A DNA stretch of 64,000 nt from the NCBI RefSeq assembly GCF_000328685.1, contig NC_019974.1, positions 310,001 to 374,000 on the forward strand, written 5' to 3'. The DNA comes from Natronococcus occultus SP4 (GTDB lineage Archaea; Halobacteriota; Halobacteria; Halobacteriales; Natrialbaceae). Shown here one piece after another: positions 3,707-15,116 of the stretch. The notes beneath the pieces are model-generated. The model was not told the DNA's origin and did not search any database. It saw only the letters and a program-made list of their open reading frames with translations. Within the stretch, counting starts at the first letter, position 1; each line of letters begins with the position of its first letter. A program made the translations under genes and the position numbers.

Positions 3707-3785
3707 GGGATTAAATGGCCGCTTCACGGGATCAAATGTATTCGCCGTGAATTGGCAAGATATGCGGAAAAAGGGATCAAATGTA
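3707..3785 (+). repeat. Three short direct repeats near the attachment site
   Basis: GGGATCAAATGTA occurs at 3728-3740 and 3773-3785, and a variant GGGATTAAATGGC at 3707-3719. They lie 70-150 bases from the tRNA-Thr 3' end on the island side, where recombination or replication proteins of an integrated element would bind. The role is inferred. I see nothing else in the remainder of 3551-3855. Confidence 0.55.
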
Positions 3786-3841
3786 GCGACGAATTCGGGC
3801 AAAACTATATGCTAGAGGAGCTCTTCCTATCCAATAGCAAG

Positions 3842-3927
3842 TTGCCCGAAGGGCAAGCCTAGGCCGGGATTTGAACCCGGGCTCTCGTCCTTACCAAGGA
3901 CGCGCTTTACCGCTAAGCTACCCAGGC
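3842..3927 (-). other. Probable integration junction (attachment site) at tRNA-Thr
   Basis: AT-rich accessory sequence lies immediately left of this point and GC-rich chromosome to the right, and the boundary is the 3' end of a tRNA gene on the minus strand. Archaeal tyrosine integrases commonly use tRNA 3' halves as attachment sites and rebuild the tRNA. A hairpin TTGCCC-GAA-GGGCAA (3842-3856) abuts the tRNA 3' end. The partner attachment site and the integrase would lie left of the window. Confidence 0.5.
3856..3927 (-). tRNA. tRNA-Thr (GGT), copy 1
   Basis: The minus strand folds into a full cloverleaf: acceptor GCCTGGG/CCTAGGC, D stem GCTT/AAGC, anticodon stem CGTCC/GGACG with loop TTGGTAA (anticodon GGT), and T arm CCGGG-TTCAAAT-CCCGG. 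No CCA is encoded. This copy borders the island. Confidence 0.93.
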
Positions 3928-4084
3928 GCGTAATTCTGCCTTCGGTCGAGACGAATTTATCCCTTTCGAAACCCGTCCCGCGAGCACCGACGGCGGGTGA
4001 ACCACGGCGTCGTCGACCGAGGACGTCGCCGACGCTCGCGTCCCCGTCGCTCCGAACGAAGCGTCGAACCGCAGAAACGGTGAG

Positions 4085-4156
4085 AGCCTAGGCCGGAATT
4101 TGAATCCGGGGTCTCGTCCTTACCAAGGACGCGCTTTACCGCTAAGCTACCCAGGC
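4085..4156 (-). tRNA. tRNA-Thr (GGT), copy 2
   Basis: Same cloverleaf and anticodon as copy 1. Differences are confined to the variable loop and T arm (T stem CCGGA/TCCGG instead of CCGGG/CCCGG). The acceptor, D and anticodon regions are identical. It lies 157 bases from copy 1 with host-like GC-rich sequence between. Whether both are used cannot be seen. Confidence 0.9.
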
Positions 4157-11715: not shown

Positions 11716-12498
11716 TCACTCGTGGCTCGCGTCTGTATTACTCGTGTCCGCATCATCCGCGTCCGCGTCGACCGTCTCCGCGTCGGTTCGGTCCTCGAGG
11801 CTCGGCAGGTTCGAGTCCCGGTAGGGGTTGCGGCCGTAGGCGGGCAGTTCGTCCTCGAGCTGGGATTTCAGCACGCGCCGCAGCCGGTTCAGGCTCGTCG
11901 TATCGAGCCCGTGGTCGGCGGCGAGGCGTTTGAAGGCGTCTTCTTCGGTAATGTCGTGGGCGCGGTACTGGCCGAACAGCTCGTCCATCCGATCGGGCGA
12001 GAGCTCCGAAACGTCGACATTGTCGAGGCCGAAGTACGCGCGGCGGTCGACGTCGACGACGTGGCGAATCACGACCAGCGCGACCTTTGGGATCGCGCGC
12101 TGGCTCCCGAACTCGGTGAGATCGATCTCGTCCATCACGCCCAGCGCCAGATCACGCTGCCAGGGAGTCAGATCGAGGGCGTTACACAGCGCCTGGGTCG
12201 TTCGCAGGCGATCGAGTCGGTGAGCGCGCTCGCTGTACCCCGGCGTCGCGCCGTGTTGTTCGTCGTGGAGTCGCCGGACGCTCTCGGAGAGTTCCTCGTC
12301 GGGCGACTCCGCGCGGCCGATGACGGTCGCACTCGGCGTGACGACGCCCCACTGGCGAACGGTCGAGTCCCGCTGGACGTCTGCCCGGGAAAGCGCCCCG
12401 GAGCCGGGACGCGTCTCGAGGCGACGGTCCTCCTCGAGGCCGTTGGGGGCGGATTCCCGCCGGAGGGCTGGCCCGGAGTTACCAGCGTCGTCGTACAT
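11716..12498 (-). CDS. Haloarchaeal DNA-directed RNA polymerase 'epsilon' subunit
   Basis: ATG 12498 (MYDDAGNSGPALRRE) gives 260 residues. The earlier in-frame codons run through repeat DNA and were rejected. Segments VQRDSTVRQWGVVTPSA and SAIRTTQALCNALDL-like LRTTQALCNALDLTPWQRD identify the haloarchaeal protein annotated as RNA polymerase subunit epsilon, an all-helical protein of limited experimental support; the name comes from memory of homologues. The C-terminus is an acidic tail. Three tandem copies of a promoter-like repeat lie upstream, the nearest with its TATA-like core about 130 bases before the start. Confidence 0.75.
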   Translation of the reverse strand: MYDDAGNSGPALRRESAPNGLEEDRRLETRPGSGALSRADVQRDSTVRQWGVVTPSATVIGRAESPDEELSESVRRLHDEQHGATPGYSERAHRLDRLRTTQALCNALDLTPWQRDLALGVMDEIDLTEFGSQRAIPKVALVVIRHVVDVDRRAYFGLDNVDVSELSPDRMDELFGQYRAHDITEEDAFKRLAADHGLDTTSLNRLRRVLKSQLEDELPAYGRNPYRDSNLPSLEDRTDAETVDADADDADTSNTDASHE

Positions 12499-12600
12499 CG
12501 TGTGTCGCTCAGACCGGGAGACGGAAAAAGACTTGCTCGTTTCACCGAGGCCGAGAGCCGACGCTCGACGAGATTGGGTACCCCATCTGCGAAAAGCCCT

Positions 12601-12866
12601 TCGTAGCTCTACCTTGTGACCAGAGGTACTTAAAGGACGAGCGATACGCTCGAGTTTCGACCTGGCACCCGCAGCTACCAGCGGTAGGAATTCGAAAAGC
12701 GACGACCTCCGTCGTAGCTCTACCTTGTAGCCAGAACTCCGTAAAGAGCGAGCGGAGGCGCCAGGTTTCGGCCGAGGACGCACGGCTACCGAACTGAGAA
12801 ACTCGAGAAGCGACGATCTCCCGTCGTATCTCTACCTTGTGACCAGAGATACTTAAACCGAGGACG
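12601..12866 (-). repeat. Tandem promoter-like repeat array 1 (three units)
   Basis: Units start at 12601, 12712 and 12824 (spacing 111 and 112). All contain the invariant CTCTACCTTGT, followed 10-17 bases later by ACTTAAA or, in the middle unit, CCGTAAA. Between cores, weaker similarity continues (CGAGAAGCGACGA...TCCCGTCGTA), so the units are about 110 bases long. Read on the minus strand, the core gives a TATA-like TTTAAGT with conserved DNA for the next 30 bases, and the array sits upstream of the epsilon gene. The third unit overlaps the end of the nucleotidyltransferase gene, whose stop codon lies inside its TTAA. Confidence 0.75.
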
Positions 12867-13797
12867 TCGACCCACACCGCTGACTTGCCGCAAGCATCTC
12901 GTCGATGGCGTCGTTCAGCCGTGCCCGATCGGGGCCGTCGCGAGCGTGCACTGCCGGATCGATTCGCTTCGGCGGGTTGGCGAACGCACGACCGACCGCG
13001 TCGCCGATCCGGACGCTTCCCTCGCCCGCGCGCTTGCGCTCGCGGAGCTTCCGGGTTCGGCCGATCCGATCGTCGTTGAAGACCGTGGGGGCCTGGTCGT
13101 CCAGGAACGCCTCGAACTCGATCGCGGGCAGCTCGTGGTCGCCGCGCTCGCCGGTCGCCTTCAGGTATCGTGCGGCCATCGCGGCGCGGACGACGGTCAG
13201 GTTGCGCTTGACCGTCGGTCTCGTCCCCGTCTCGGCGAACCGCTCGTCGTCCGCGGCGACGGTCATCGTCCCGTCCTCGGTCTCGACCACGTACGCGTCC
13301 TCGCGGCGCTCGCGGATCGGAAAGATCTCGTCGTCGTTCCGAACCAGGTGCTCAGAGAGGTACTTGCGGTAGTTGTTCGTCGCGATCCCGCGCCAGGCGT
13401 GGTAGAGGTCGATCGGGTTGTACGCCCGCTCGACGTCGGCCGCAAGCGCGCCGGGATCGTAGCGCGTTCGGTACCGGATCGGACTCCGCAGAAGGTCGAT
13501 CGCGCCGTCGTTCGAGTCGGCAAGCAGTGCGGCGAACGTGCGGACGTCCCACCCCTGGTACTCGAATGCGCCGCGCTCCTCGAGGAGCACCCCGTCGACG
13601 CCGCCGAGGTGGGCGTACCGCCGGAGGTCCGTCGGCGCGTAGACGAAGCTGATATCGTAGTCGCTGTCGGGCCCCGCCGCGCCCCAGGCGTGGCTCCCGC
13701 GGGCGACCGCCAGAACGATCGACACCTCCCGAGAGCGCTCGATCTTTTCCAGGTGTCGATCCACCGTCTCGCGTGCGTGGGTGGGGATCGATGCCAT
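12853..13797 (-). CDS. Nucleotidyltransferase, RlaP / DNA polymerase beta superfamily
   Basis: A 314-residue protein with the polymerase-beta signature RGSHAWG (33-39) followed by PDSDYD (43-48), giving the metal-binding aspartates D46 and D48. The rest (RYRTRYDPGALAADVER, ATNNYRKYL, PTVKRNLTVVRAAMAARYL) matches the RlaP-like family named for its association with RNA ligases. It probably transfers a nucleotide to RNA or a small acceptor; the substrate is unknown. Promoter-like repeat arrays lie on both sides of it, with the upstream core 125 bases before the start. Confidence 0.8.
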   Translation of the reverse strand: MASIPTHARETVDRHLEKIERSREVSIVLAVARGSHAWGAAGPDSDYDISFVYAPTDLRRYAHLGGVDGVLLEERGAFEYQGWDVRTFAALLADSNDGAIDLLRSPIRYRTRYDPGALAADVERAYNPIDLYHAWRGIATNNYRKYLSEHLVRNDDEIFPIRERREDAYVVETEDGTMTVAADDERFAETGTRPTVKRNLTVVRAAMAARYLKATGERGDHELPAIEFEAFLDDQAPTVFNDDRIGRTRKLRERKRAGEGSVRIGDAVGRAFANPPKRIDPAVHARDGPDRARLNDAIDEMLAASQRCGSTSSV

Positions 13798-13894
13798 CGC
13801 TACCGTCTGTCGCTCCTCGCGTCCTCGGATCGCGATCCCGTCCGGGACGCGCGGCTATCGACTAACTGAGAACCGTAGAACGTCCGGCCTCCCG

Positions 13895-14063
13895 TCATAG
13901 CTCTACCTTGTGACGGGAACCACTTAAAGAGCGAGCGCTCGAGCGTCGCCCTTTCGAAACGGCGGACGGCAAGACGCGTGGCTCCCGAGTTCGAGCGTCC
14001 GAGAGAACGACGACTTCCCGTCGTATCTCTACCTTGTAGCCAGAACCACTTAAAGAACGGTCG
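13895..14063 (-). repeat. Tandem promoter-like repeat array 2 (two units)
   Basis: Units start at 13895 and 14021 (spacing 126) with the same invariant CTCTACCTTGT and CCACTTAAAG cores as array 1, in the same orientation. Read on the minus strand they precede the nucleotidyltransferase gene; the nearer core is 125 bases from its ATG, almost the same distance as in array 1. The rest of 14064-14189 holds the region before mptA and nothing else I can name. Confidence 0.75.
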
Positions 14064-14189
14064 GTGCACCCGCTCTCGGAACGCGACCGACCCTCGACGA
14101 ACGAGGACGTTCGCCGTCACGACGCCGTGCGATCTGATACCGCACCCGCTTTCGAAAGGTTGAATCGCGCGCTCGCCTGAATGTGATCA

Positions 14190-15116
14190 ATGAGTCAGCA
14201 GCTTCCGGACGTCCAGGCGTCCTCGCCCGACGTCACCGTCGGCCTGAGCCAGGTCGGCGTCACCGGCGTCGAGAAACTCGTCAAGATCGCCCGCGAAGAC
14301 AAACGTCCGATCGTCCTCACGGCCGAGTTCGAGGTTTTCGTCGACCTCCCGTCCTGGCGGAAGGGCGCGGACATGAGCCGCAACATGGAGGTCATCGACG
14401 AGATCCTCGAGGACGCGACCCGCGACGAGGCCTACCGCGTCGAGGAGGTCTGTGGCGAGGTCGCCGAACGGCTGCTCGGGAAACACGACTACACCTCCCG
14501 CGCGGAGGTCACGATGGAGGCGGAGTTCATGCGCCGCGAGCAGACCCCCGCCAGCGACCGCGAGACCCAACACACCGTCGACATCATCGCGTCCGCGACT
14601 GCCACGGAGGAGGGCACCCGCGAGGAGATCGGCGCCGAGGTCGTCGGGATGACGGTCTGTCCGTGTTCGCAGGGGATGTCCGCCGCGCGCGCGAAACAGA
14701 CCCTTGAGGACCTGGGCGTCGAGGAGGAGACGATCACGGAGTTCCTGGAGGAAGTTCCACAGCCGGGCCACTCCCAGCGTGGACACGCGACGCTGACGAT
14801 CGAGTCGAGCGGCGACCCGGACGTCGATCTGAACGACGTCATCGACATCGCGCGGGACTCGATGAGCGCCCGGATCTACAACCTGGCGAAACGTCCCGAC
14901 GAGGACCACATGACCTACGCGGCCCACGCCGACGCGAAGTTCGTCGAGGACTGCGTGCGCTCGATGGCCGAAGGAGTCGCCGAGGAGTTCGATCACCTTC
15001 CCGACGACGCCGTCGTGACGATGAAACAGTCCAACGACGAGTCGATCCACCAGCACAACGCCCACGCGGAGCGGGTCGTCGAGATGGATCAGCTGCGCAC
15101 CGAAGTCGACGACTAG
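14190..15116 (+). CDS. mptA: GTP cyclohydrolase MptA (FolE2-type)
   Basis: A 308-residue protein of the GTP cyclohydrolase IB/MptA family. The metal site segment VCPCSQGMS contains C157 and C159, and [13 protein letters not shown] follows. In archaea MptA opens the GTP imidazole ring to give dihydroneopterin 2',3'-cyclic phosphate, the first step to the pterin of methanopterin or folate. Fe(II) is the usual cofactor in characterised MptA. The two genes at its 3' end overlap by four bases, tail to tail with the TrmB-like gene. Confidence 0.92.

Follow-up and report, generated by a model that had tools for sequence, protein, structure and literature searches.

The locus raises the question of why two minus-strand genes of Natronococcus occultus, rpoeps (coding for the epsilon subunit of RNA polymerase) and an rlaP-type nucleotidyltransferase gene, are preceded by tandem copies of a promoter-like element, and by what factor this element might be read. 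In the window, by which we mean the whole 64 kb stretch of DNA analysed, the 11-base core CTCTACCTTGT occurs at 12607, 12718, 12830, 13901 and 14027, always on the plus strand. No sixth copy was found in the 64 kb when one mismatch was allowed (0.27 expected by chance), and none of 100 shuffles reached five copies. Five tandem copies in one orientation, each with an invariant core and a TATA-like box, had been described in an earlier note on this DNA, and all were found where that note had placed them; its estimate of 125-130 bases from the nearest core to the start codon is about right. The copies form two minus-strand arrays, three before rpoeps and two before rlaP (Table 1), with copy-to-copy distances of 111, 112 and 126 bases within arrays and 1071 bases between them. 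The predicted starts lie 106, 217 and 329 bases upstream of the rpoeps ATG (12498), and 101 and 227 bases upstream of the rlaP ATG (13797). In the minus-strand reading of each copy the TATA box is of the CTTTAAGT type, and T(C)TCTGG, ACAAGGTAGAG and TA.GA come after it. The rlaP stop codon (12853-12855) falls within the TATA box of copy 3 (12851-12858), a place where a gene end and a promoter-like element overlap. The identity of RlaP was confirmed by Pfam and that of rpoeps was inferred from its Halobacterium orthologs, epsilon having been described in that genus (PMC8305020); the proposed promoter-like, tandem arrangement upstream of these two genes is supported.

Table 1. Copies of the element and genes around the two arrays (window coordinates)
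Feature	Position	Strand	Predicted start	Remarks
rpoeps, RNA polymerase epsilon subunit	11716..12498	-		orthologs in Halobacterium; modelled cyclin box at about residues 87-222
Element copy 1, nearest rpoeps	12589..12644	-	12604	TATA box CTTTAAGT at 12628-12635
Element copy 2	12700..12755	-	12715	degenerate TATA box CTTTACGG
Element copy 3	12812..12867	-	12827	TATA box overlaps rlaP stop codon
rlaP-type nucleotidyltransferase gene, behind second array	12853..13797	-		Pfam RlaP, E 2.8e-27
Element copy 4, nearest rlaP	13883..13938	-	13898	
Element copy 5	14009..14064	-	14024	between rlaP and divergent mptA
mptA, GTP cyclohydrolase, divergent neighbour	14190..15116	+		

In the genome as a whole (4.3 Mb) the element has 11 copies, five in the window and six elsewhere. 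One of the six is located 123 bases before hisG (whose identity was confirmed), one upstream of dnaK and oriented away from it, and one lies 392 bases ahead of a gene for copper amine oxidase; the other three are intergenic and have no evident target gene within 450 bases. In the upstream regions of the four 16S genes nhmmer gave no meaningful match to the element (one chance match, 0.5 bits). This bears on the suggestion that the arrays share growth-rate control with the rRNA operons. Haloarchaeal rRNA operon promoters do resemble the element in that several stand in tandem before one gene and have a TTA(A/T)GT-type TATA box, but they carry a different block, with none in common, and in N. 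occultus the four rRNA operons have no copy before them. With the element missing from the rRNA promoters, the link to rRNA growth control is unsupported, and that the arrays are growth-rate-controlled tandem promoters of the rRNA type is highly improbable.

A model of the element built from the 11 genome copies was run over relatives and found copies in 36 of 61 genomes, nearly all members of the same family being among these 36. The information profile of 198 sites shows about 50 constrained positions, from -40 to +14 around the predicted start, and the 11-base core therefore understates the element. The consensus is a C/T-rich flank, a CTTTAAGT TATA box and TTCTGG-nn-ACAAGG-nnn-AGMTAYGA, arranged in three flush blocks: a C/T-rich stretch with hardly any A (-40 to -31), the TATA box (-30 to -24) and a further block (-21 to +8). 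Across the same 198 sites there is no conservation upstream of -41, and the downstream signal fades past about +20. At -34 to -31, just upstream of the TATA box, where a purine-rich BRE would lie, A makes up at most 4% and the sequence is mostly GTTC in 444 elements, as opposed to A/G in 88 generic upstream regions, a small and crudely aligned set. Neighbouring copies are mostly spaced by 100-140 bases and almost never more closely; for 142 of 192 consecutive pairs the spacing is under 260 bases. The earlier proposal that the conserved segment after the TATA box could be a recognition site for a factor is in keeping with the block conserved from -21 to +8.

TTTAAGT stands at a fixed 26-30 bases before the conserved AG(C/A)TA, which suits an archaeal TATA-dependent core promoter, whose TATA box lies about 26-27 bases ahead of a purine start. 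In promoters of the virus HF2 that have the same CTTTAAGT box, the mapped starts follow the first T of TTTAAG by 26 bases (PMC8707807). Applied to the element, this rule places the predicted start in the interval from the conserved A at position -4 to the A at position 0, and the TATA-to-start geometry agrees with the mapped HF2 starts. The HF2 class I repeats are dispersed, intergenic promoters of 56-58 bp, strong in their native orientation and of low or negligible activity when reversed, and they are active in Haloferax volcanii without viral factors (PMC8707807). They share with the element the dispersed intergenic occurrence, the TATA core CTTTAAGT and a block of conserved sequence at the start site. 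However, the HF2 block after the TATA box is CGTCTNNTAGAG (gamma motif), whereas that of the element is TTCTGG-nn-ACAAGG; comparison of HF2 IR4 with the element model gave only (T)CTTTAAGT in common (-0.9 bits), and the element lacks the gamma motif. A viral origin was considered and rejected: no halovirus in the phage collection matched, and the strict pattern is absent from 2.9 million viral contigs.

In the Natrialbaceae outside Natronococcus, 61% of the copies can form a stem of at least 5 pairs, G-U pairs included, that joins the start region with +8 to +25, compared with 41% of reshuffled sequences (z 6.7); outside the Natrialbaceae there is no such signal (z 1.0). A DNA palindrome serving as a dimer site was rejected, for within groups the start-proximal inverted-repeat signal needs G-U pairs and is clear only within the Natrialbaceae. 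The signal is therefore read as a weak RNA hairpin in that family and not as a general operator. The excess of hairpins, together with the many copies that lack a sense gene and the likeness of the Natronococcus copies up to about +50, would suit small RNA genes, each unit being a promoter with a leader of about 50 nt and a 5' hairpin, and the arrays being sRNA clusters. We hold this to be very unlikely: over the whole set the leader is unconserved past +20, the hairpin signal does not extend beyond the Natrialbaceae, and a scan of the region with Rfam 15 gave a chance-level match only, none above the gathering score.

Among 506 sites in related DNA 503 are intergenic and three are inside predicted genes, although 76% of the searched DNA is coding (genes were predicted by a simple codon-usage caller, which may overlook short ones). 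When public genomes were scanned with the rpoeps family, 80 named haloarchaeal loci were obtained, of which 70 have a sense copy at most 700 bases upstream of rpoeps, at a median distance of about 155, and half of these 70 have two to four copies. Such rpoeps-upstream copies occur in the Natrialbaceae and in Halobacterium, Halorussus, Haladaptatus, Halococcus, Halorhabdus, Halarchaeum and Halorientalis. Where rlaP is missing, the array sits directly between mptA and rpoeps, thus the association with rpoeps is the common denominator. Copies lying mainly in genes or at random places, which the earlier note had named as the mark of a mobile repeat, are not what is seen, and the position before rpoeps is conserved.

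A dispersed MITE- or REP-like repeat that spreads through genomes, with some copies co-opted before rpoeps and other genes, nevertheless has observations in its favour in Natronococcus. The dispersed single copies of this genus (L070, L072, L082, L084-L089, L110, L112, L114, L120, L122 and L123) have a common leader to about +50 and occupy places that differ from genome to genome, some of them on plasmids. Two of them, L082 and L112, have about 700 bases around the element in common. The plasmid copies are in haloarchaeal plasmids only, and where the records are annotated no feature lies beneath them. On the other hand, the alignments made showed no conspicuous terminal repeats or target duplications, different families have kept both the place and the sense orientation of the copies before rpoeps, and insertion in genes is almost nil. 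Taken by itself the repeat explanation seems to us quite unlikely, but it may be partly true, as spread and function of the element can coexist.

Copies away from rpoeps are more varied. The sense genes that recur are, besides rpoeps, rlaP, hisG (four Natronococcus genomes), serS (Halorhabdus-like), menA (Halorussus-like) and dsbA (Halobacterium); one cold-shock gene and one acetyltransferase gene are single cases. Among the copies fetched, 132 lie away from rpoeps; for 46 of them a sense gene begins at most 450 bases on, and for 86 (about two thirds) none does; 48 of the 132 converge on an opposing gene, and 29 are neither sense nor converging. In three Halorhabdus-like species a copy converges on the 3' end of the same gene of 255-324 aa (L265 2743, L274 3141, L285 3243), and this recurrence suggests that a copy can be functional without a sense gene. 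In Halorussus, Haladaptatus and Halorientalis (L203-L211 and L223, at about 3720-4100, minus strand), one to three tandem copies are found just past the 3' end of rpoeps, pointing back into the gene as if for antisense RNA. Reversed copies also have mptA and mutS behind them. At eight loci (L101, L125, L131, L136, L143, L159, L165 and L284) copies facing away lie 140-330 bases upstream of mptA, some of these loci being without rpoeps or rlaP next to mptA; in the L284 genome rpoeps is about 100 kb off. For these mptA-side copies an effect of the element in reverse orientation is possible. The dispersed, converging and reversed copies could produce antisense or non-coding transcripts, act as operator-like sites, or be copies spread by recombination.

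The reversed and gene-less copies suit an operator better than a promoter. The block might be the operator of a separate DNA-binding regulator that is inherited together with rpoeps, epsilon being only one of the regulated genes and not itself reading the element; archaeal repressors can bind between TATA box and start, and the conserved block overlaps this space. The absence of rlaP beside many rpoeps genes speaks against such an operator, as does the distance between block, TATA box and start, which is fixed over the 198 copies and fits core-promoter recognition. We consider the operator unlikely.

New relative to the earlier note is that the distribution of the element tracks the epsilon gene itself. 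A broader element model and an rpoeps profile were both run over 292 haloarchaeal genomes at least 90% complete, with an ortholog defined by E <= 1e-50. Both were found in 115 genomes, rpoeps only in eight, the element only in none, and neither in 169; the element is thus absent from every one of the 169 genomes that lack an rpoeps ortholog (Fisher P 2e-72, a value that ignores phylogeny). In 28 rpoeps-positive genomes, most of which are outside the family of the window, 57 of 110 copies are over 10 kb away from rpoeps or on a contig other than its own, and such copies occur in 17 of the 28, so the co-occurrence is not the trivial effect of a missing gene having no promoter. Family f5 has a single genome in which an rpoeps ortholog was seen (G155), and seven of the eight copies of G155 are on other contigs. 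Within one genus (g11) rpoeps and the element appear to have been lost together (G018/G234 versus G109/G138), but this case was discounted as support because the g11 copies adjoin rpoeps. Eight genomes have rpoeps and no clear element; in four of them the TATA half is matched in part, possibly by diverged forms of the element. Fifteen genomes lack the element and have rpoeps-like proteins of distant similarity only, at E 4e-4 to 2e-27 (G056, G092, G102, G107, G118, G127, G132, G183, G225, G237, G248, G279, G289, G298 and G310); a second, divergent epsilon-like family seems to exist. Within haloarchaea, then, the element was found only in epsilon-carrying genomes and usually stands before rpoeps itself, and it is probably the DNA signal through which epsilon acts. 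Another factor of the same distribution as epsilon might conceivably take this part.

Halobacterium salinarum and a subset of haloarchaea carry epsilon as an extra subunit; the epsilon-containing polymerase is efficient on native templates, the polymerase without it is not, and the biological relevance of epsilon was called enigmatic in 2021 (PMC8305020). Transcription of native DNA by the epsilon-containing Halobacterium RNA polymerase was the subject of a 1983 report, as cited in PMC2121645. Sequence searches for relatives of epsilon in Pfam and PDB gave nothing significant. An AlphaFold model made from 35 orthologs has a mean pLDDT of 66.9, mostly 75-93 over residues 81 to 210, and its best VIA-align matches are cyclin boxes, including those of TFIIB from yeast and man, of Brf2 and of Pyrococcus TFB (Z 8.8-9.8, with some 95-101 residues superposed at about 2.3-3.2 A; for Pyrococcus TFB, 1d3u_B, Z 8.8 with 100 residues at 2.7 A). 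VIA-align Z values of this size can also be obtained with helical folds, and all Foldseek E values for the model were above 0.2. The hhalign comparison of epsilon with the TFB repeats of its own genome gave a weak match, in register (P 0.033 over 37 columns). Given the nonsignificant Foldseek values and the weak profile comparison, the modelled TFB-like cyclin-box fold is taken as likely and common ancestry of epsilon and TFB as unproven.

Haloarchaea have promoter classes that are set by which general factor recruits the polymerase (PMC2121645). The N. occultus genome codes for at least nine TFB proteins (19 PF00382 matches), one of them about 3.7 kb from a dispersed copy on contig C3. The modelled cyclin box of epsilon makes the element comparable to promoters directed by alternative TFB/TBP factors. 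In contrast to TFB, however, epsilon has one modelled cyclin box, is described as a polymerase subunit and shows no detectable TFB sequence profile (PF00382, two cyclin repeats, zinc ribbon), rpoeps not being among the 19 TFIIB matches of its own genome; the likeness, as far as the model goes, is structural only. The conserved block of the element is downstream of the TATA box, unlike the BRE position in promoters directed by alternative TFB/TBP.

Taking these observations together, we favour the interpretation that the element represents an epsilon-dependent, autoregulated class of core promoters. Each copy would be a complete core promoter of a special class, in which TBP and TFB would bind the CTTTAAGT TATA box with its atypical C/T-rich flank, the epsilon-carrying polymerase would make an extra contact with the rigid -21 to +8 block, and transcripts would start from the conserved AG(C/A)TA. 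Through the copies that precede its own gene epsilon would be autoregulated, in a loop of either sign, and rlaP and hisG, as well as serS, menA and dsbA in other genera, would come under the same control through copies of their own. The tandem copies probably add up, raising or grading the output. The proposed contact would explain the fixed distance of the block to TATA box and start, the absence of the element where epsilon is absent, and the poor transcription of native DNA by polymerase lacking epsilon. The element with its rigidity and positions, its strict co-occurrence with epsilon and the predicted cyclin-box fold are what the analysis shows, and from these we deduce initiation at the sites and recognition of the block by epsilon. 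Counting against this interpretation are the majority of non-rpoeps copies without a sense gene, the reversed copies at mptA and mutS, and the eight rpoeps genomes without a clear element. Whether epsilon goes as far as being a dedicated, sigma-like promoter-specificity factor, one that reads the downstream block, drives its own gene via tandem copies and defines a regulon, we judge to be evenly balanced. The element offers the enigmatic epsilon subunit a candidate recognition sequence and candidate targets and, if the proposal is true, archaea would have a class of promoters defined by the sequence that follows the TATA box and by an accessory factor bound to the polymerase.
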